IMG/VR virus record: IMGVR_UViG_3300037349_000198
Span: 1-20,073 of that record
Length of the DNA stretch: 20,073 nt
Strand: one strand, 5' to 3'
Source: a virus
Both the position numbers and the translations under genes were made by a program. This document shows positions 904 through 13,167 of the stretch, one piece after another; within the stretch, counting starts at the first letter, position 1; each line of letters starts with the position of its first letter. The notes under the pieces are model-generated. The model worked only from the letters and a program-made list of their open reading frames with translations. It was not told where the DNA came from and ran no database searches.

Positions 904-1422
904 ATGAAATTTGTTTTGCCACTGCTAATGCTCTTGTGCGTGAGCATCACGTCCTACGCGCAAACAGGAATTAATGCCAGCCCCTTCAAACCTGAAGAGG
1001 ACAAGCGTTTTCGTAAATTAGAGCAAGAAGTAAAGGGTAAGTTCTTTTGGGATTTTACAGTTCAAGGGGGCTCAACGGCGGCTGCCATAAATTTAAGGCC
1101 CTATTATTCAGCCGGACAACTGCCAGCAAATGCTATAATCACAAGAAGCTATATGGTGGCAAATACTGGCGTCACAGGCTCTGGCGCTCAATTTGCCCTT
1201 GCTTGCGGATCAGCTAATATTTTAAGTGCTACTGTAGGGACAGCTCTTTCCACGCAATACGCACTTTTAGATGGGCTTCAGACCGGAGCTTCCACTGCTA
1301 TGAGTAAGGTCGGCACTTCTCAGTGTACACCGACAATTACCTGGAGCACGGGTGCCGCAACCGCTGGGCGAATTGATGTTTATCTTGATTACATCAAACC
1401 CGCAGATATCAACGGACAATAA
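904..1422 (+). CDS. Exported protein with phage decoration-like domain
   Basis: The ATG has a strong ribosome binding site (AGGAGA, 891-896, 7 nt spacing). The 172-residue product opens with a Sec signal peptide: Lys2, a hydrophobic core at about 3-15, and a likely signal peptidase I site after Ser-Tyr-Ala (residue 19). A short charged linker (28-45) leads to a Gly/Ala/Thr-rich domain. That domain carries INL at 62-64, LPANAII at 73-79, GSGA at 92-95 and a closing TAGRIDVYLDYI, the same layout as the decoration protein at 8690-9193. The mature part has two cysteines (101 and 141) that could form a disulfide after export; the capsid-side relative has none. It stands alone, with a strong terminator behind it, so it may be a moron-type gene expressed separately from the virion genes. 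The relationship is by eye; function is unknown. Confidence 0.85.
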   Translation: MKFVLPLLMLLCVSITSYAQTGINASPFKPEEDKRFRKLEQEVKGKFFWDFTVQGGSTAAAINLRPYYSAGQLPANAIITRSYMVANTGVTGSGAQFALACGSANILSATVGTALSTQYALLDGLQTGASTAMSKVGTSQCTPTITWSTGAATAGRIDVYLDYIKPADINGQ

Positions 1423-1495: not shown

Positions 1496-1515
1496 GTGAT
1501 CGGGTTAATGTTTGG

Positions 1516-1545
1516 GGGTCCCTCGTCCACGGGGGACCCTTTTTT
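1516..1545 (+). terminator. Rho-independent terminator after exported-protein gene
   Basis: GGGTCCC (1516-1522) pairs with GGGACCC (1533-1539) around a 10 nt loop, followed at once by six T (1540-1545). It separates the upstream transcription unit from the packaging genes, so terS needs its own promoter or antitermination. Confidence 0.9.
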
Positions 1546-1571
1546 AACTTGCGGGGAATCCTTGAGGCCGA

Positions 1572-4611: not shown

Positions 4612-6280
4612 GCAATCAAAGAGTAAAATAAAATTTAATTACCCATCAAAGATTGCTTCGACTGAAATTGTTGGGGCCTTTAATGAATTAAAATCTCTAA
4701 GATTTGTCTGGGATGCTCACTGGCGTGAAATTGCTGATTTTCATATTCCAAGAAAAAATGATATTTTGCGCCAACAAATTCCAGGCTCAAAAAAGGCGCT
4801 CGACCTATACGACAACACAGCGATGCATTCTTCAGAATTACTCACCTCGGCCCTTCATGGACTTCTAACAAATCCCGCGGCTTATTTCTTTGATTATACC
4901 TCTGGGGATCCTGAGATAGATTACGACGATGATTGCAGGGCTTGGATGCAAGATGCCATGCGAAAAACCCACGACGTTTTAAATGATTCAAATTTTCAAA
5001 CCCAAATCCATGAAGTCTATACTGATATTGTAAACTTTGGCACAGGGCCCATGACTATTGAAGAGGACTCACGCTATGTTGTGAGATTTAAATCCTGGGC
5101 TGTAAAGAATGTTTATTTAGATGAAGACCCCCAAGGGGAAATTAATCGCGTTTATAGATATTTCAAATGGAACGCGGATAAGATTGTAAAACGATTTGGT
5201 ATAGAGAATGTTTCAAAGGTAGTTTTAAAATCTTTTGAAGACCGCGATATAAATACGATGTTTGAAATAATTCATGCGGTTTACCCAAAAGATGAAGAGT
5301 CAAATGACCTTCATAATTTCCTCTCTCAATATGTGGAACTTGAAACCAGAAAAGAATTAGATGTTGGGGGCTTTAATGAATTCCCCTACATCACCCCCCG
5401 CTGGAATAAAATAGATGAGGAGATGTACGGCAGATCTCCCGCAATGACATCATTACCAGAGGCAAAGACAATTAATGAGATGACAAAGACCACTCTCATT
5501 GCTGCTCAAAAAGTAATTGATCCACCTCTTATGATTCCTGATGATGGCTTTATTATGCCGATTAAAACAAAGCCCGGAGGATTCAATTATTACCGCCCGG
5601 GCACTGATCCTATTAAGCCAATTTTTAATCAAGATATCAGACTTGACCTGTCGGACACGGAAAGAGAAGCCACCCGAAAAAGAATCAGAGAAGCTTTCTA
5701 CGTGGATCAACTAAGCCTAGGGACCAATAACCCTCAGATGACGGCGACTGAAGTCAATGCCAGGCAAGAACAAGCCATGACCCTACTTGGCCCAATGTTG
5801 GGTCGCCTTCAATCTGAGCTTTTACAGCCCATGATTTTAAGGGTTTTTAATATTATGATGAGACGAGGTATGTTTAAGCCCGTTCCATTAAAGCTTAAAA
5901 AACACAGCCGCATCGTGGTGCAATATTCAAGTTTAATTGCCAAAGCCCAAAGACAAGTTGATATCAAAGCCATCCAAAAATATTTAGATGTTCTAACTCC
6001 CTTTACAAATGCCGACCCCACTGTGATGGATAATCTTGACGGGGACATAGCGGCTAGGTTACTTCTCAAACTTACTGGGGCACCTCAAGAGATTATTAAA
6101 GATCAAAATGATGTTAAGCAAATTCGCGATGCAAGAGCAAAGGCACAAGCTAAGCAAGCTCAGCAACAAGATCAGCAACATCAAGCAGAGGTTGCAAGTA
6201 AAGCTTTACCTGCGATGGCTACAGCACAACAAGCCCAACAAAAAATGATGGGTGGAATTAAAGGACCTGCAAGTGCCTAA
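4604..6280 (+). CDS. Portal (head-tail connector) protein
   Basis: The 558-residue product matches the podovirus head-to-tail connecting protein family (T7 gp8 type) in size and motif style. Its N-terminus has the familiar FNELKSLRFVWDAHWREIAD segment, then DNTAMHSSELLTSALHGLLT, where the portal clip and wing begin. It ends in a Gln/Ala-rich coiled tail, as many podovirus portals do. Twelve copies form the ring at one capsid vertex through which DNA enters and leaves. I chose ATG 4604 because AGGAGG (4593-4598) lies 5 nt upstream; the in-frame start at 4547 has no such signal and would add 19 residues overlapping the previous gene. The 8 nt overlap with that gene suggests coupled translation. 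Confidence 0.95.
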   Translation: MAKQSKSKIKFNYPSKIASTEIVGAFNELKSLRFVWDAHWREIADFHIPRKNDILRQQIPGSKKALDLYDNTAMHSSELLTSALHGLLTNPAAYFFDYTSGDPEIDYDDDCRAWMQDAMRKTHDVLNDSNFQTQIHEVYTDIVNFGTGPMTIEEDSRYVVRFKSWAVKNVYLDEDPQGEINRVYRYFKWNADKIVKRFGIENVSKVVLKSFEDRDINTMFEIIHAVYPKDEESNDLHNFLSQYVELETRKELDVGGFNEFPYITPRWNKIDEEMYGRSPAMTSLPEAKTINEMTKTTLIAAQKVIDPPLMIPDDGFIMPIKTKPGGFNYYRPGTDPIKPIFNQDIRLDLSDTEREATRKRIREAFYVDQLSLGTNNPQMTATEVNARQEQAMTLLGPMLGRLQSELLQPMILRVFNIMMRRGMFKPVPLKLKKHSRIVVQYSSLIAKAQRQVDIKAIQKYLDVLTPFTNADPTVMDNLDGDIAARLLLKLTGAPQEIIKDQNDVKQIRDARAKAQAKQAQQQDQQHQAEVASKALPAMATAQQAQQKMMGGIKGPASA

Positions 6281-6554
6281 GTTAAGTTTTGGAAAGAATA
6301 AAGATGTAAAGCGTGAGCAAGTTAAAAAAGTCACCATTTACCATGACACCTTTAAGCATACAGCCAATGGAAGGGCAGTTTTAAAAGATATGATGGGGGC
6401 ACACTTCATGCTCCAAAGTTCTTTTGATCCTAATCCCTACGAGATGGCCAGACGCGAAGGTGAGAGAAATGTAATTTTAAGAATCTTATCGATTCTAGAG
6501 ACCTCAGCAAGTGAGCTGAGAAAATTAATGGAAGAGAGAGAATATGATGAATAG
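6273..6554 (+). CDS. Bbp19-like small head-module protein
   Basis: The likely start is GTG 6273, with AAAGGA (6260-6265) 7 nt upstream, giving 93 residues; an earlier GTG at 6252 lacks a ribosome binding site. The core reads YHDTFKHTANGRAVLKDM, then a run to NPYEMARREGERNVILRIL. This matches the pattern of the Bbp19 family (a Phe/Thr start, GR-x-VL, then EG-x-R before a final helix), found beside portal and capsid genes in BPP-1-like phages. Its role is unknown, probably head assembly. It overlaps the portal gene by 8 nt and the scaffold gene by 8 or 11 nt. Assignment is from memory of the family pattern. Confidence 0.75.
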   Translation: MPKLSFGKNKDVKREQVKKVTIYHDTFKHTANGRAVLKDMMGAHFMLQSSFDPNPYEMARREGERNVILRILSILETSASELRKLMEEREYDE

Positions 6555-7497
6555 AAAGTTTTTTGTAATGGCCGAAGCAGGCACTGAAGGTACCGGCGCC
6601 GGTGGAACTGCAATTAATAACCCGCCCCCAATTGCCGCTCCAGATGTTGACGCAAAGGGTGGAGATGATGCCGCAGCCTTGGCTGCAAAAGCTGCCGCTG
6701 CGAATGCACCCAAGGGTGATTTTGTATTACCTGAGAAGTGGTATGAGAAATTGCCTGATGATTTAAAGAATGAACCGACGTTAAGAAATTTCACTGACTT
6801 TAATCATTTAGTTAAATCTTTGGTGCATGCTCAAAAAGCTATTGGAGCTGATAAACTCGTTAAGCCCTCTAAGCATGCTACCGATGCTGACATCAAGGAA
6901 TTCTATAAAGCCTCAGGGTTGCTTCCTGAGAGCCTGGACAAATATGATGTTAAACCACCTCCGATTTTTGAGAAAGACCAGGAAGGGTTTAATAAATTAA
7001 AAGCTGCCGCTTTCGAAGCTGATATCTCACCAAAGCAATTCCAAAAATTAGCCGACGCTTATGGTACAGACCTTGCCCAACAAATTGTTAAAAATCAAAC
7101 CATGGCAAAAGAAGCTCAGGCAATAGGGATTAATGGACTAAAGGCTGAGTGGGGCAAAAAATACGATGAGAATTTACGGGCCGCGGGCCATGCCTTGAAT
7201 AAATTTGGCGATGACTCTTTAAAGAAGATGTTAGACACCACAGGTCTTGGCAATCACCCCGCAATCTTAAAGGCCTTTGCTAAGATGGGAGAGAATTTAG
7301 TGGAGCACACAATTGATAAAGGTGGCGCTGGAAATCAGGAAAGAAACTTTACCCCTAAAGAAGCTGCCGCTAAATCGGCTGCCATTATGGGTAACCCCGC
7401 ACATCCTTATTATTTGAAAGATCACCCTGGACATTTGGCAGCGGTCGAGGAGATGAAGGGTCTGTTTGAAATGCAGTATGTAGATGCTGGGGCTTGA
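6547..7497 (+). CDS. Capsid assembly scaffolding protein (probable)
   Basis: The 316-residue protein lies between portal and major capsid genes, where podoviruses keep their scaffold. It opens with a Gly/Ala/Pro-rich low-complexity leader, then a Trp- and Lys-rich segment (VLPEKWYEKLPDDLKN), a step typical of phage head-assembly proteins (a KASGLLPESLDKYDV-like motif), and long predicted helices (LKAEWGKKYDENL and on) to the C-terminus. Scaffolds guide shell assembly and then leave or are degraded. ATG 6544, 6547 and 6568 are all in frame; 6547 gives 6 nt spacing from the purine run at 6530-6540 and an 8 nt overlap with the previous gene. No protease motif is visible. Confidence 0.85.
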   Translation: MNRKFFVMAEAGTEGTGAGGTAINNPPPIAAPDVDAKGGDDAAALAAKAAAANAPKGDFVLPEKWYEKLPDDLKNEPTLRNFTDFNHLVKSLVHAQKAIGADKLVKPSKHATDADIKEFYKASGLLPESLDKYDVKPPPIFEKDQEGFNKLKAAAFEADISPKQFQKLADAYGTDLAQQIVKNQTMAKEAQAIGINGLKAEWGKKYDENLRAAGHALNKFGDDSLKKMLDTTGLGNHPAILKAFAKMGENLVEHTIDKGGAGNQERNFTPKEAAAKSAAIMGNPAHPYYLKDHPGHLAAVEEMKGLFEMQYVDAGA

Positions 7498-7671
7498 CTT
7501 TAGAGCCCTTTTTACCGAAGTATGATTATATAGGTTCACCGGAGATGGGCAATCGTCGCTGATCCATTGTTGAAGGTGTGACCATAAAATAGCGCGAATC
7601 CTCCAAAGAGGGCAATTCGACAAAGTTCAAATTTTGTAGTTTTGTCTATAACTTTTTTCGGAGGATGACTC
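7498..7671 (+). promoter_or_regulatory. Structured leader upstream of the major capsid gene
   Basis: This is the longest gene-free gap inside the structural operon. It can form two hairpins: CGAATCCTC (7595-7603) with GAGG and ATTCG (7608-7619, 3 nt bulge), and GACAAA (7619-7624) with TTTGTC (7641-7646). A strong ribosome binding site (GGAGG, 7660-7664, 7 nt before ATG) follows. TTGACT (7494-7499) and TATGAT (7521-7526) resemble promoter boxes, but the 21 bp spacer is too long for ordinary sigma70. The leader may carry a capsid-specific promoter of unknown type or an RNA processing or stability site, as before gene 10 of T7. Confidence 0.45.
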
Positions 7672-8613
7672 ATGTCTCAACAAATTACCACAGCGTTTGT
7701 AAAACAGTTTGGAAGTAATATCTACTTCCTTGCGCAACAAAAAGGATCACGACTTCGCGGCTCAGTTCGTAATGAGCAACAAGTCGGTGACGTTGCATTC
7801 TATGACCAAATCGGAGCAGTAAGTGCTGTTCTAAAAACCAGCCGTTATTCAAACACACCGCAAATCGATACACCACACGCTAGACGTATGGTTTCGATGA
7901 ACGATTATGAATGGGCTGATTTGATCGACAAACAGGATAAAATTCGAATCCTCATTGATCCTCAATCTGCATACACACAGAGTGCTATGTGGGCCATGGG
8001 TCGATCGATGGATGACGTTATTATCTCCGCAGCCCTTGGAACCTCTTACACTGGCGTAAGTGGATCAACCTCTGTGACCTTGCCAGTTGCTCAGTACTAC
8101 GCAGCTAATGACGGAACCCAGTTCACAAATTTAAACACCGTCACTCTTCGTGGAATAAAGCAAAAATTTGATGCAGCCGATATCGATGAAGCAATTCCTC
8201 GATACATTTGCTGCTCTTCATCCCAGATCCAAAACTTACTTGTTGAAACACAAGTAACAAGTGCCGATTTCAACACAGTCAAAGCACTGGTTGAAGGAAA
8301 AATCGACACGTTCATGGGGTTCAAATTCATTCGCTCTGAGCGATTAAATACCTTGGCTTCAGCTTCTTTCTCGGCTGATCCCACAACCGGTATTGTGACC
8401 GCAGGGTCCAATTTCACAAACTACACCACATGCCGCCAAGTAATTGCTTGGGCACAAGATGGAATACTCTTGAGCACTGGTATGGATGTATTTGCTCGCA
8501 TTGATGAGCGCGCTGATAAGTCTTACAGCACTCAAGTTTACGCAGCAATGTCACTCGGTGCGACCCGAATGGAAGAAGTGAAAGTCGTCGCAGCTCTCTG
8601 TAAAGAAAGCTAA
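7672..8613 (+). CDS. Major capsid protein
   Basis: The 313-residue product fits the podovirus capsid family of the Bbp17 type: an N-terminal MSQQITTAFVKQFG, then LAQQKGSRLRGSVR, then VGDVAFYDQIG, and later RRMVSMNDYEWADLIDKQDKIRI with a following MGRSMDDVIISAALG helix. These are the N-arm, E-loop and spine-helix regions expected of an HK97-fold subunit of about 34 kDa. It assembles the icosahedral shell with the scaffold and portal encoded just upstream. The start has a strong Shine-Dalgarno (GGAGG, 7660-7664). Codon choice here is more even and C-rich than in neighbours, as expected for the most abundant virion protein. A terminator follows 17 nt after the stop. Confidence 0.94.
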   Translation: MSQQITTAFVKQFGSNIYFLAQQKGSRLRGSVRNEQQVGDVAFYDQIGAVSAVLKTSRYSNTPQIDTPHARRMVSMNDYEWADLIDKQDKIRILIDPQSAYTQSAMWAMGRSMDDVIISAALGTSYTGVSGSTSVTLPVAQYYAANDGTQFTNLNTVTLRGIKQKFDAADIDEAIPRYICCSSSQIQNLLVETQVTSADFNTVKALVEGKIDTFMGFKFIRSERLNTLASASFSADPTTGIVTAGSNFTNYTTCRQVIAWAQDGILLSTGMDVFARIDERADKSYSTQVYAAMSLGATRMEEVKVVAALCKES

Positions 8614-8630
8614 GAATTATTTTAATAGCG

Positions 8631-8661
8631 GTGGGGTGTATTAAAATACATCCCACTTTTT
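8631..8661 (+). terminator. Rho-independent terminator after major capsid gene
   Basis: An 11 bp stem, 8631-8641 with 8646-8656 (one G-U pair, 4 nt loop TAAA), is followed by five T (8657-8661). The next gene starts only 29 nt later with no room for an ordinary promoter, so this terminator must be leaky or serve as an RNA 3' end that lifts capsid expression over the genes behind it. Confidence 0.92.
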
Positions 8662-8689
8662 CTAGAAAATTTTAAAAGGAGATTTGAAA

Positions 8690-9193
8690 ATGGCTCAGTT
8701 ATATGGTGTGAATGCGACTCTGGGACAAAATAGTAACCCAGTCGTAAAAGTACCTCCCGGTCAAGGTGGGGGAATGCTCCGAGTAATGTTTGACAGCTAC
8801 GCCTACGGGGCTGGTGGATCAACTACTGCGGATATTATTAACCTCGGTAATCCACTTCCTCCCGGAGCTTTAATCCTTGACGTTATAGTAAATCATAACG
8901 CCTGGGGTGGATCTGGAGCGATCAACCTCGGATATGTGGTCAGCACAGGAGACACTGATGCAGCTTCTGCTACAGCATTCTTCTCAGCTCTCAGCATGGC
9001 CTCCGCTGCGACTGTTAGACTGACTGACACAACCTACAACGCTGCTACAGGGTTGTATAAATTGTTTAGCTCTGCCCCTGCCGCTGCTTCGAATCAATTA
9101 GCTCCTCAGATTCAAGTTCAAGCTGTGGTTTCCACCGGCGGTGCTGCTCAAGCAAGTACCCTCGCAGTGGCTGTTTATTATTTAACGTACTAA
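8690..9193 (+). CDS. Capsid decoration/cement protein (probable)
   Basis: The 167-residue product is small, Gly/Ala/Ser/Thr-rich, without cysteines or a signal peptide, and beta-rich by appearance. Key points are INLGNPLPPGALI at 50-62, GSGAINLGY at 74-82 and a closing strand pattern (AVAVYYL). Genes of this size directly behind the capsid gene usually encode shell-stabilising cement proteins (Bbp16 slot in BPP-1-like phages). The exported protein at 904-1422 has the same overall order of motifs. ATG 8690 is chosen because AAAGGAG lies 8 nt upstream; a TTG at 8684 is in frame but too close to it. Terminators stand before and after the gene. Confidence 0.75.
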   Translation: MAQLYGVNATLGQNSNPVVKVPPGQGGGMLRVMFDSYAYGAGGSTTADIINLGNPLPPGALILDVIVNHNAWGGSGAINLGYVVSTGDTDAASATAFFSALSMASAATVRLTDTTYNAATGLYKLFSSAPAAASNQLAPQIQVQAVVSTGGAAQASTLAVAVYYLTY

Positions 9194-9201
9194 GAATCGT
9201 A

Positions 9202-9231
9202 GGGCACGCCTTCGGGCGTGTCCCTTTTTTT
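9202..9231 (+). terminator. Rho-independent terminator with UUCG loop
   Basis: GGGCACGCC (9202-9210) pairs with GGCGTGTCCC (9215-9224, one bulged T) around a TTCG tetraloop, followed by seven T (9225-9231). It is a very stable terminator placed 14 nt before the next gene's start, again with no room for a promoter between them. Confidence 0.94.
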
Positions 9232-9245
9232 GAAGGGGTGAAAAT

Positions 9246-9875
9246 TTGACCGGCATAAATTCCGAAACGGACTTGTGTAATTCTGCGCTCATAAAACTTG
9301 GCGCAGATCCCATCACAGAATTAGGCGTTGATACATCTAAACAAGGTGTGCTTTGCTCAAATCGTTACCCCTACATTCGTGACGAAGTTTTAACAAATCA
9401 TCCATGGAATTTTGCTAAAAAAAGAGCCTCCCTTGCTCCAAGTGCAACGACACCTTTTAATTACAAATATACTTACGGCTTTCAAGTCCCCAATGATCTT
9501 TTAAAACTCTTAGGAAATGATCTCGATGAAGATGACTCTTGGGTTTACGAGGGTGGCTATATTTGTTGTTATGCCACAACACTAAACATACTTTATATAT
9601 TTCAACAAACCGACACCACAAGATATGACGCCTTGGCAGCTAGTGCCATCGCCTGGAGATTAGCCGCAGAATTGGCATACCCTCTAGTTCAATCCACAAC
9701 GCTCGCTAAAACTTGTATGGATGCTTACTTAGCCACAATGAAAGATGCACGCAGCAAAAACGCTCAAGAGAGAGGATCCCTTCAGCAAGTGGTGGCAGAT
9801 TCTTGGTCGCAAGCTAGGGTCTCAGGTGGCCTTGACAATGGATTTGGCCAGGGTGATGACCCTTCAAAATTATAG
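9246..9875 (+). CDS. Tail tubular protein A / head-tail adaptor
   Basis: The 209-residue product has the hallmark start of T7 gp11-like adaptors: TDLCNSALIKLGADPI at about 8-23, then a Cys and Tyr segment and RDEVLTNHPWNFAKKRASL, followed by a YGFQVPNDLLKLL strand-turn. These rings bind under the portal and carry the nozzle protein encoded next. The start is TTG, with AAGGGGTG (9233-9240) 5 nt upstream; a nearby GTG at 9238 hits an in-frame stop after three codons, which decides for TTG. The TTG start may hold this protein to a low level. The C-terminal helix is Gln/Ser-rich and ends near GQGDDPSKL. Confidence 0.92.
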   Translation: MTGINSETDLCNSALIKLGADPITELGVDTSKQGVLCSNRYPYIRDEVLTNHPWNFAKKRASLAPSATTPFNYKYTYGFQVPNDLLKLLGNDLDEDDSWVYEGGYICCYATTLNILYIFQQTDTTRYDALAASAIAWRLAAELAYPLVQSTTLAKTCMDAYLATMKDARSKNAQERGSLQQVVADSWSQARVSGGLDNGFGQGDDPSKL

Positions 9876-9881
9876 GATATA

Positions 9882-12731
9882 ATGGGACGTTTTAACGCAC
9901 TAGAAAGTTGTTTTAGCCTCGGCGAAGTTTCGCCTAAAATGTTGGGAAGGTCTGACCTTAAAGATCAGTACGCCCAAATGTGCCAAGAGGTTACAAACTT
10001 TATAATTCATAAACAAGGTGGCGGCTCTCGTCGCCCTGGGACTCAATATCAATTATCCTCTATAAACGGAATTAATTTACCTGCGGGTAAGACTAAAATG
10101 ATCCCGTTTATTATTTCTAAAACTTTAAAGTTCATGGTTTACATTTTCCCCAATGACATAGGAATTAATAATCTTGGCATAGCGGTTCATAACCCCCAAA
10201 CAGGGCAGGTGATTTACACGCCCTTTAATGCCAACACCACAAGTGATTGCAGGGCCCCCGCTCCATTTATTACTTTCCCAGGTATGTCCTCGTATAATAG
10301 TGTCGCTGATTTTCAGCAAATTTCTTATTCATCAAGCGGTGATATCTTAATAATTTGCGCTGGAGGATACCCTCCAATTTATTTGGCGTATGGGACTTTT
10401 ATAGGGGCGGGCAGTGTTAATTTTATTCTGTTTGATATTTGGACCTCTAGATCCATCATCCCCTTAACTCAGCAAGCAAGCTACGCTGCGGGTACTACAG
10501 GGGCCTACAACCCCGGTGGATACTCCGCAAACCCACCATCTTTTGCAAGTAGGCCAACACCTATTAATCCATGGGAGATTACACCCTTTACTTTTTCAAA
10601 CTTTTTCCCCTGGCAGACTTTTCATATTGGCACAGGATACGGAACCGTTGGGGCCACAAAGGTTGATCTTGATTTTGACGGGCCTGGAACCGCTGGCGTG
10701 AATGCTGATATGCCCTTTAGCATTTATGACCCAAACACAAAAGCGAGAACCGGAAGTAATGGGCTAATAAGTTTTAATGGGTGCCTTGGGAATTTAATCA
10801 GAATAGACACCAATGGTACCACTGGCATTGGAATCATTGACTCCGTTGCTGGCGGCTCTACTGGGCAACCCACTGTTACAATTCTAAAAGCCTTCGGGGA
10901 TCAAACACCCACTGTTATGTATATGTCCACTTGGTGCACTTATGGGTGGCCAAAACTCTGCTCTTTTTATCAGCAAAGATTGGTGTTAGCAAATTCCGAT
11001 ACCTTTGATGATACTCTTTGGGGCTCTGAGCAAGGTAATATCACCATGTTTAGGCTCCAAAAAAATATTGAAGATTCAACATTCGCCACCATATCAAACG
11101 ATATGCCCTTTCAATTTGCCCTTGCTCAAACTGAAGACGATGAACTTAAATGGATGACCTCTGATCGGGATTTCATGATTGGCACTTCAGGTGGAGAGTG
11201 GCTCTGCTCAGGCACTGATCCAACACAAAGCTTAGGCCCCCTTAATGTGGGGATTTATTTGCAAACTGCCTATGGCGGGGAAAGAGTCCCTCCGGTTAGA
11301 AGTGAAAGTAATGTTCATTTTGTTTGTAGGGGTGGGACAAAAATCCGGGAGATAGTTTATGACTTCAGAGAAAACCATCGCCTTGCTGACGATATTACTA
11401 ATTATGCTGAGCACATCACTCAGCTTGGTTACAGCCAACGAGCTTCGATTCTACCCTCAGCGGTATTTCGCCTGGCGTATCAGGCTCTTGATAATAATAT
11501 TACTTGGGCTATCGACAATAACGGCCTCCTATTTGCTCTTACAAGGGATCGTGCAACGGGCGTTATGGCCTGGCATAAGCATCCATTAGGAGGAGTTTCA
11601 GGAAACGTTTCCCAAATTTTTACTTTTGCAGGGCTTGCCGCTGGCGCCTCAGGCATGACGCCAAGTTCTTATTTTACTTTTTCAGACGGTAACGGCGTTA
11701 ATCATTATGTTTGGGCTTATATCGGGGGTGTTGGTACTGACCCAGCAATCGCTGGAGCCACAGGACACAAGTGGACCCTCGCTGGAACTGAAACTACAGC
11801 TCAACTTGCAACGTCAATGATCACCCTCATTAACGGTATCGCAGGATTTACATCTTATTTAAATTTAAACGGGGTTCTTTTTAACGGCGGGCAATCTCAG
11901 TATCTAGCGGGTAATATAGTTTTTATTCAATGCACAGCCGCAGGTGCTACAACTCTCCCCGCTAATCCTTCAGGTGTAGCCATGGGCTATGTGGATTTAG
12001 TTACTCAAGGGGTTACGCGCTCTACAGAAACGCCGTTTGTTTTAGATATTTGCACGATGCCCTCAAATTACGGGGATAGTGATGAGGTGTGGCTTTTAGT
12101 GAATAGGTTTATAAATGGCGTAAGTACTGTATGCGTTGAAAAGATGGGTAAACCATATAGGTTTACATCAATGGCTAACACATCTTTAGTAGCTGATGAC
12201 AAATTATTTTTAGCCGATTGCGCGGCTTTTCAAAGGTTATCTTCACCCGGCACAGTGTTTAACGGCTTTACTCAATTAAAAAATACTTTAGTGGATATCA
12301 TAGCAGACGGTAATTATATCGCAGGCGTTACCGTTGACAGCACAGGAACCATCACTACACCCGGCACTCAAACTTACACCGAAGTCATCGCGGGTATTCC
12401 CTACAACGCCTATCTAAGACCAATGCCTATAGTGGCAGGGTCAATGATAGGATCTGGGGACTCAACGCTAAAAAGGATAGATCGGGTTATCGCAAGATTT
12501 TGGAGAACTGTCGCCGCAGGCTACGGGAAATTATCTACAAACCTTGTTCAATTTCCTTTTAGACCCCAGGGTGTTGCTAACGGTACTCCAACGCCAATGT
12601 TCACGGGTGTTATGAATAAGATGTACACCGACGATATAGAAAACGATGCCGATATTTTAATTGCGAGCACAGTTTCACTTCCCTGCACCATAACGTCCAT
12701 GACCCTAAGAGGGCTTACGATGGATGGATAA
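9882..12731 (+). CDS. Tail tubular protein B / tail nozzle, with inserted domain
   Basis: The 949-residue protein is of the T7 gp12 nozzle type. Typical points are SLGEVSPKMLGRSDLKDQY (12-30) and VTNFIIHKQGGGSRRPGTQY near the start; FYQQRLVLANS and LWGSEQGN in the middle; LKWMTSDRDFMIGTSGGEWL, then VHFVCRGGTKIREIVYDF; and DEVWLLVNRFINGV late. It closes the tail and is the exit for DNA. It is longer than T7 gp12 (794 residues). Part of the excess is a separate domain at about 589-710, with SSYFTFSDGNGVNHYVWAYI, a GTDPAIAG turn and a TTAQLATSMITLI helix, of a kind I recognise from other phage tail proteins. AGGAT at 9874-9878 lies 3 nt before ATG 9882. It overlaps the next gene by 8 nt. Confidence 0.95.
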   Translation: MGRFNALESCFSLGEVSPKMLGRSDLKDQYAQMCQEVTNFIIHKQGGGSRRPGTQYQLSSINGINLPAGKTKMIPFIISKTLKFMVYIFPNDIGINNLGIAVHNPQTGQVIYTPFNANTTSDCRAPAPFITFPGMSSYNSVADFQQISYSSSGDILIICAGGYPPIYLAYGTFIGAGSVNFILFDIWTSRSIIPLTQQASYAAGTTGAYNPGGYSANPPSFASRPTPINPWEITPFTFSNFFPWQTFHIGTGYGTVGATKVDLDFDGPGTAGVNADMPFSIYDPNTKARTGSNGLISFNGCLGNLIRIDTNGTTGIGIIDSVAGGSTGQPTVTILKAFGDQTPTVMYMSTWCTYGWPKLCSFYQQRLVLANSDTFDDTLWGSEQGNITMFRLQKNIEDSTFATISNDMPFQFALAQTEDDELKWMTSDRDFMIGTSGGEWLCSGTDPTQSLGPLNVGIYLQTAYGGERVPPVRSESNVHFVCRGGTKIREIVYDFRENHRLADDITNYAEHITQLGYSQRASILPSAVFRLAYQALDNNITWAIDNNGLLFALTRDRATGVMAWHKHPLGGVSGNVSQIFTFAGLAAGASGMTPSSYFTFSDGNGVNHYVWAYIGGVGTDPAIAGATGHKWTLAGTETTAQLATSMITLINGIAGFTSYLNLNGVLFNGGQSQYLAGNIVFIQCTAAGATTLPANPSGVAMGYVDLVTQGVTRSTETPFVLDICTMPSNYGDSDEVWLLVNRFINGVSTVCVEKMGKPYRFTSMANTSLVADDKLFLADCAAFQRLSSPGTVFNGFTQLKNTLVDIIADGNYIAGVTVDSTGTITTPGTQTYTEVIAGIPYNAYLRPMPIVAGSMIGSGDSTLKRIDRVIARFWRTVAAGYGKLSTNLVQFPFRPQGVANGTPTPMFTGVMNKMYTDDIENDADILIASTVSLPCTITSMTLRGLTMDG

Positions 12732-13167
12732 ATTATCGGTGTGGGAATATAAACTAGGGGATTCAAGAAAGTTTAAGCCCAAAGAGGGAATTTTTGATGC
12801 CACAGTCCACGATAATATAGAGAGAATTTTCGCTCTTGGGTCGGATAGGCAGTGGATGTTCACCATTGATTTAGAGGGAAAGCCGGTGGCTGTTATCGGT
12901 GGCACTCTGATTGCCGGAGGTGTTGCAGAGCTTTTCTCTATCATGGCTGATGAGGTCTATAAAAGACCGCTGGCATTTGCCCGGACCGTTGAAAGGTGCA
13001 TGACTTATTGCCAAAAGAAGTTTAAATTTCATAGGTATCAAACGCTCGTAAAAACCGACGAGGTGGGGCTACATCGGTGGGCCAGGTTCTTAAAAATGGA
13101 ACCTGAGGGAGTCTTAAGACAGCTCTACGATAAAAAAGATCACACAATGTATTCGAGGCTATACTAA
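12724..13167 (+). CDS. GNAT-fold protein, T7 gp13-like
   Basis: The 147-residue product has the strand-helix order of a GNAT acetyltransferase: a charged start, a beta pair around RQWMFTIDLEGKPVAVIGG (42-60), AELFSIMADEV, a long helix (PLAFARTVERCMTYCQKKF), and the HRWARFLKMEP-type end common in N-acetyltransferases. The acetyl-CoA pyrophosphate loop (Q/R-x-x-G-x-G/A) is not visible. T7 gp13, in the same place between the nozzle and gp14, is also GNAT-like and needed for virion assembly, so a structural rather than enzymatic role is likely. Translation is probably coupled through the 8 nt overlap with the nozzle gene; AGAGGG lies just upstream. Confidence 0.8.
   Translation: MDKLSVWEYKLGDSRKFKPKEGIFDATVHDNIERIFALGSDRQWMFTIDLEGKPVAVIGGTLIAGGVAELFSIMADEVYKRPLAFARTVERCMTYCQKKFKFHRYQTLVKTDEVGLHRWARFLKMEPEGVLRQLYDKKDHTMYSRLY

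Follow-up and report, generated by a model that had tools for sequence, protein, structure and literature searches.

The decoration and adhesion modules of tailed phages are usually regarded as parts of the virion that are assembled in the cytoplasm. The cement proteins of phages GP4, Pam1, and KHP30 are trimers, and cement proteins bind mature capsids at their three-fold axes (PMC9698820); decoration proteins, moreover, often bind surface carbohydrates (PMC7602432). Receptor blocking by exported phage proteins of the Llp/Cor type also shields progeny from debris (PMC13164509). According to one survey, hypervariable phage proteins of the adhesin type have no signal peptides (PMC6199706). The open-access literature was found to cover receptor blockers that phages export as well as phage-like fibres exported by bacteria, but not the protein family analyzed here.

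The window, i.e., the whole 20,073-nucleotide stretch of DNA that was analyzed, carries the genes for packaging and virion structure of a podovirus. ORF calls and Pfam/PHROG annotation identified genes for the small and large terminase subunits (TerS, TerL), portal (head-tail connector), scaffold, a capsid protein of the Phage_capsid_2 type, a decoration protein, tail tubular proteins A and B, and internal virion proteins. The first clear gene of the window is an ORF of 172 codons with an ATG start (positions 904–1422, + strand), which is preceded by a Shine-Dalgarno sequence (AAAGGAG, 889–895, + strand) 8 nt upstream of the start codon and lies directly 5′ of the gene for an Sf6-type TerS (1584–2333, + strand; PF20901, 2e-18). 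An earlier note on this DNA had assigned the ORF to its own transcription unit. The downstream boundary of such a unit was supported by a strong intrinsic terminator at 1514–1548 (+ strand; 12-bp GC-rich stem and T tract within 1514–1541, TTTTTT; fold z = −3.1). Upstream of position 904, no sigma-70-like sites above chance, relative to shuffled sequences, were found, so that the upstream boundary is putative. The window contained no Rfam matches or tRNAs. Its AT-rich stretch without clear genes carries a 22-nt inverted repeat (69–90 and 333–354; 91% complementary, 242 nt apart), which is possibly regulatory or an origin.

The first 19 residues encoded by ORF 904–1422 (MKFVLPLLMLLCVSITSYA; 904–960, + strand) were predicted to form a Sec signal peptide that is cut by signal peptidase I between A19 and Q20, with MK as n-region, VLPLLMLLCVSI as h-region, and a c-region and cleavage site TSYA/Q. 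The export call was made with a simple rule-based scorer rather than with SignalP and gave a score of 22.3. As a control, the scorer was applied to 480 proteins from related loci that are homologous to other products of the window and are not exported; three were called positive, all with a score of 18.2 and from an upstream start, and none reached 19. Signal peptides were also found at the same place in the exported relatives described below, in which they are kept in form though not in sequence and follow start codons that mostly have good ribosome-binding sites. Together with the score, these independent relatives bore out the clear signal peptide recorded in the earlier note. The mature domain (961–1419, + strand; 153 residues, 16.0 kDa, pI 8.6) was predicted to adopt an Ig-like beta-sandwich fold and to belong to the cement/decoration superfamily of phages. 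Near its N-terminus it carries a motif, SPFKPEEDKRFRKLE (PFxPExDxRF; 982–1026, + strand), that in alignments is common to the exported relatives in contigs L113, L114, and L155, and further contains the module signature LPANAIITR (1120–1146, + strand). Exactly two cysteines are present in the mature protein, Cys101 (codon 1204–1206, + strand) and Cys141 (codon 1324–1326, + strand); a third, C12, lies within the signal peptide. The decoration protein of the same phage (8690–9193, + strand) contains none, and the earlier note had likewise recorded two cysteines for the exported protein only.

The earlier note had compared these two proteins and reported the same order of motifs in both. At the level of the individual proteins this similarity was weak: direct BLASTP was not significant (E = 20), and the match of the decoration-family HMM to the 904–1422 protein (E = 0.18) was too near noise to count as evidence on its own, a spurious ORF scoring 0.36. 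Comparison of families, in contrast, gave solid support. The major capsid gene (7672–8613, + strand; Phage_capsid_2, Pfam 1e-79) was used to find 80 loci, and the decoration family comprised 63 distinct homologues, the gene for each lying immediately 3′ of that for a related capsid protein. To assemble the family of the exported protein, sequences were collected by means of a degenerate DNA pattern for LPxNAIITR and by profile searches, resulting in alignment A6. With hhalign, the exported-protein family matched the decoration family with Prob 95.7 and P = 9.2e-9 over approximately 120 columns, a span that runs through the LPxxA-I motif and the GSGA-type turn to the last strand, whereas control profiles (reversed, column-shuffled, or from eight unrelated families) all yielded P ≥ 0.14. 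Smaller inputs gave P values of 5e-7 (four-member exported set including L155), 6e-7 (exported subset with only L113 and L114), and 7e-4 (single sequence).

Searches against the PDB were consistent with this result. In profile searches, the exported family matched the BPP-1 cementing protein (3j4u_H, E 0.003) and the GP4 cement protein (8h89, E 0.07), and the decoration family matched the cement proteins of GP4 (8h89_J, 6e-11) and Pam1 (7eel_H, 4e-10). An AlphaFold2 model of the mature 904–1422 domain was beta-rich (pLDDT 77, pTM 0.68), and its two best Foldseek matches in the PDB were the cement proteins of KHP30 (7dn2_1, 3.3e-4) and Pam1 (7eel_H, 5.8e-4), with a probability of 1.00, followed by a phage baseplate-tail chain (8gtc_T) and a tail fibre (9rkv_N). 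The model also had 49 viral model matches at E < 0.001; TM-scores of its fold matches were modest (0.54–0.65). For the AlphaFold model of the decoration protein, Foldseek matched the cement proteins of Pam1 (7eel_H, 4e-7), GP4, and KHP40. Based on these common PDB matches, namely Pam1 7eel_H and the KHP30/KHP40 cement proteins, the predicted folds of the two proteins agree. Judged by their profiles, the two families are clearly homologous. The 904–1422 and 8690–9193 proteins belong to the same superfamily but are only distantly related and not recent duplicates; the former represents a separate branch, whose nearest kin are phage proteins with export signals, decoration genes in the head regions of other phages, and a tail-spike tip. 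A protein of Pelagibacter phage Baldr that is annotated as a “TonB-dependent receptor domain repeat protein” and encoded 3′ of the capsid gene, before that for tail tubular protein A (OQ414636.1, 9441–9893), resembles the decoration family (E = 8, a position-based assignment) and is probably a cement protein.

Direct searches with the 904–1422 protein detected no close relative in IMG/VR, 84,980 genomes, 50,697 phages, and 72,556 plasmids; weak phage matches (E 0.8) corresponded to a gamma-glutamyl cyclotransferase-type gene and were rejected. A profile scan of genome contigs yielded no chromosomal relative of the module, and in the annotation tables of annotated phages with related large terminases, no annotated exported gene occurred in the stretch before TerL. 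Signal-peptide versions were, however, recovered from six other contigs of uncultured phages (L113/L130, L114, L155, L116, L108/L112, and L118), so that, with the window included, there are at least seven phage contigs in which the same structural module has an export signal. The exported module is thus a recurring, uncharacterized phage feature and not a one-off.

In four of the six contigs, which stem from related podoviruses, the gene either neighbors TerS or lies within the operon for portal and scaffold. The relative in L114 (signal peptide MKKLFLLLALAATAVSAHA, cut before Y) overlaps TerS by 4 nt and has a second exported gene upstream; that in L113/L130, an apparently circular contig of 42,186 bp with repeated ends, is located directly 5′ of TerS (MKHFILAAALAASLFSLHARA, cut before D) and is likewise preceded by another exported gene. 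The relative in L155 (MFKICKGLFLVLVCLAPSFSFA, cut before R) was recovered by a DNA search with the PFxPExDxRF motif alone and sits between the portal and scaffold block of a close podovirus kin, which also carries its own decoration gene. In L116, the exported relative is divergent from TerS, and in L108/L112 it adjoins a signal-bearing, fibre-like protein of 1,192 amino acids with a CBM5/12 domain (1.5e-10) and another exported protein. In L118, a beta-helix tail spike of 791 amino acids (phrog_7458, 1e-21; PF13229, 7e-20; gene at 8012–10387) starts with a Sec signal peptide and has the module at its C-terminus.

The surroundings of these genes contained further exported proteins. The fibre-like CBM5/12 gene of L112 (IMGVR_UViG_3300013232_000183, 4849–8427) lies just 3′ of a collagen-like tail fibre gene and is followed by a gene for a second exported, cysteine-rich protein (8436–9341), forming an island of exported fibres in a podovirus-like contig. 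In L114 (2359–2784) and L130 (5563–5913), the gene for the exported module, itself 5′ of TerS, is directly preceded by one for a second, unrelated small exported protein; sub-threshold hits aside, these two proteins gave no Pfam/PHROG match at the limits used. More small genes for lipoproteins or proteins with signal peptides occur near TerS in related podoviruses (L155, 2547–2846 and 2073–2393; L019, 3726–3998 and 2711–2965), and genes for exported proteins seem to cluster in the region 5′ of TerS as in a hot spot.

The cysteine pair was found to track export. It is present in five of the seven exported proteins (those of the window, L113, L114, L108, and L155, in which the columns of Cys101 and Cys141 are conserved), missing from the exported proteins of L116 and L118, and absent from the non-exported members of A6, as the idea of folding in an oxidizing compartment had predicted. 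Several of the non-exported members have a major capsid gene as neighbor, namely those of L101, L094, and L129. In a tree of 17 modules, the window protein was placed inside an all-exported clade with a support of 98/98; upon addition of two more rows, one of which formed a long branch, this clade dissolved. Both trees require a minimum of three changes of the export label. A module of the virion surface has thus entered the export pathway, and this probably happened repeatedly, although the exported group may alternatively have had one origin followed by losses.

In its predicted Ig-like fold and profile-level homology, the 904–1422 protein resembles the trimeric cements of Pam1 (7eel), Ralstonia phage GP4 (8h89), Helicobacter phages KHP30/KHP40 (7dn2, 7dou), and Bordetella phage BPP-1 (3j4u; Pfam Bbp16). 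Unlike the known cements of this type, which are cytoplasmic, bind capsids, are devoid of the cysteine pair, and in the cases analyzed are encoded directly 3′ of the capsid gene, it has a Sec signal, and its gene precedes TerS, while the slot after the capsid gene is held by 8690–9193. Since it lacks two tested features of cements, the post-capsid position and the absence of an export signal, it was classified as a variant and not as a cement protein. With the receptor blockers T5 Llp and Cor it shares a small size, export, and a plausible receptor-occupying purpose (PMC13164509). It differs from these proteins in its predicted cleavage site (SYA/QTG), which has no cysteine at +1 and no lipobox, and in its fold matches, which are cement and tail proteins; in the fold search, no Llp occurred among the 50 best PDB matches of the model. 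The combination of a signal peptide with a phage-type, trimeric, beta-rich surface module is also found in the MAT adhesins of Bdellovibrio (PMC10769870), but in these long fibres of bacterial origin the N-terminal domain, of approximately 130 amino acids, is conserved, whereas 904–1422 encodes a single, short, 153-aa phage module with no shaft.

The anatomical part of the earlier proposal, an exported domain of the capsid-decoration type, agreed with the signal peptide, the family homology, and the predicted fold, and the 904–1422 protein is very probably an exported module of the virion-surface type. Neither of the outcomes that the earlier note had named as refuting it, differing predicted folds or a rejected signal peptide, was observed. 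The functions listed there (surface exclusion, receptor masking, lysogenic conversion, and a periplasm-loaded virion part) are candidates between which sequence does not discriminate. With respect to function, we tentatively favor a Sec-exported, free-standing, trimeric Ig-like module of the cement or fibre/spike-tip type that works as a receptor- or glycan-occupying adhesin. The mature protein would acquire its disulphide while folding in the periplasm, trimerize, stay there or occupy the cell surface, and after lysis be present in the lysate. By filling receptor or glycan sites, it could stop infected cells and debris from binding phage, which would limit superinfection and keep progeny from re-adsorbing to debris. 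The module would be expressed late; late co-expression is suggested by the portal/scaffold position in L155 and the 4-nt TerS overlap in L114. Protection of progeny fits such a late gene position better than does superinfection exclusion of the infected cell. The tail spike of L118, which ends in the module, ties it to surface binding. Against surface action, no lipoprotein features and no obvious anchor for the cell surface are present in the 904–1422 protein. Homology by itself does not demonstrate receptor binding, and actual occupation of receptor or glycan sites is possible but somewhat doubtful. If it occurs, the family would represent an unnoticed class of phage-encoded receptor blockers. 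More generally, though with considerable reserve, a class of tailed-phage virion-surface modules (cement type, spike tips) may be envisaged that have cleavable Sec signals, gain a disulphide, are produced together with the late genes, and act outside the cytoplasm, where they either occupy the phage's own receptors in cell and lysate or join the virion only after lysis.

Direct use in the virion, with the exported, disulphide-folded protein coating capsids or tails once lysis mixes periplasm and virions, is unlikely. The predicted fold and superfamily are those of cements that bind capsid three-fold axes (PMC9698820). Moreover, the L155 relative is located among head genes, and the genes for the cytoplasmic relatives of L101, L094, and L129 adjoin capsid genes. 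However, the window phage already encodes a cement protein (8690–9193). In addition, no tailed phage is known to load a Sec-exported subunit, and none was found in the open-access literature. Virion binding, if true, would represent a new post-lysis route for virion decoration; either way, the family supplies a defined protein for expression and testing.

A host-benefit or conversion adhesin, that is, an exported fibre-type moron with a design comparable to that of the Bdellovibrio MAT adhesins, seems just as improbable. Bacteria do have exported phage-like trimeric adhesins (PMC10769870), an independent terminator follows 904–1422, and exported fibre-like neighbors, one with a CBM, occur in L112. 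Lysogenic conversion nevertheless had no direct support here, since no lysogeny gene (integrase or repressor) was identified in the 20-kb fragment. The GC content of ORF 904–1422 equals that of the genome, and late lytic expression, which also argues against such a moron, is suggested by the TerS overlap in L114 and by the placement of the L155 gene between those for portal and scaffold.

In T7-like phages, TerS is flanked by lysis genes, and spanins are helical, envelope-spanning proteins. A lysis-associated periplasmic factor would be in line with the position of 904–1422 next to TerS and with matches of 9 of the 17 family members to phrog_20969, labeled “Rz-like spanin” (best E 0.0012; 904–1422 protein 0.021). 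These profile matches are weak, however, and the beta-sandwich model of the 904–1422 protein, with neither the transmembrane nor the coiled-coil design of spanins, led us to reject assignment to this family. Since phrog_20969 also matches family members that are cytoplasmic and linked to capsid genes, L101 among them, its label is probably wrong for the module and likely misassigned, and a role in lysis is very unlikely. An equally small chance was given to absence of export, with the hydrophobic N-terminus acting as membrane anchor or the protein being an ordinary, cytoplasmic second decoration protein, for which the rule-based origin of the export call and the ambiguous hydrophobic N-terminus of family member L117 could be adduced, but which is at odds with the short h-region, polar c-region, and AxA-type sites, conserved in form across further family proteins, and with the confinement of the cysteine pair to exported forms.

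Elsewhere in the window, a gene at 12724–13167 is located between those for tail tubular protein B and an internal virion protein. Its product, which had no Pfam match at E ≤ 1, is acetyltransferase-like by eye only, and the position of the gene is kept in many related contigs.
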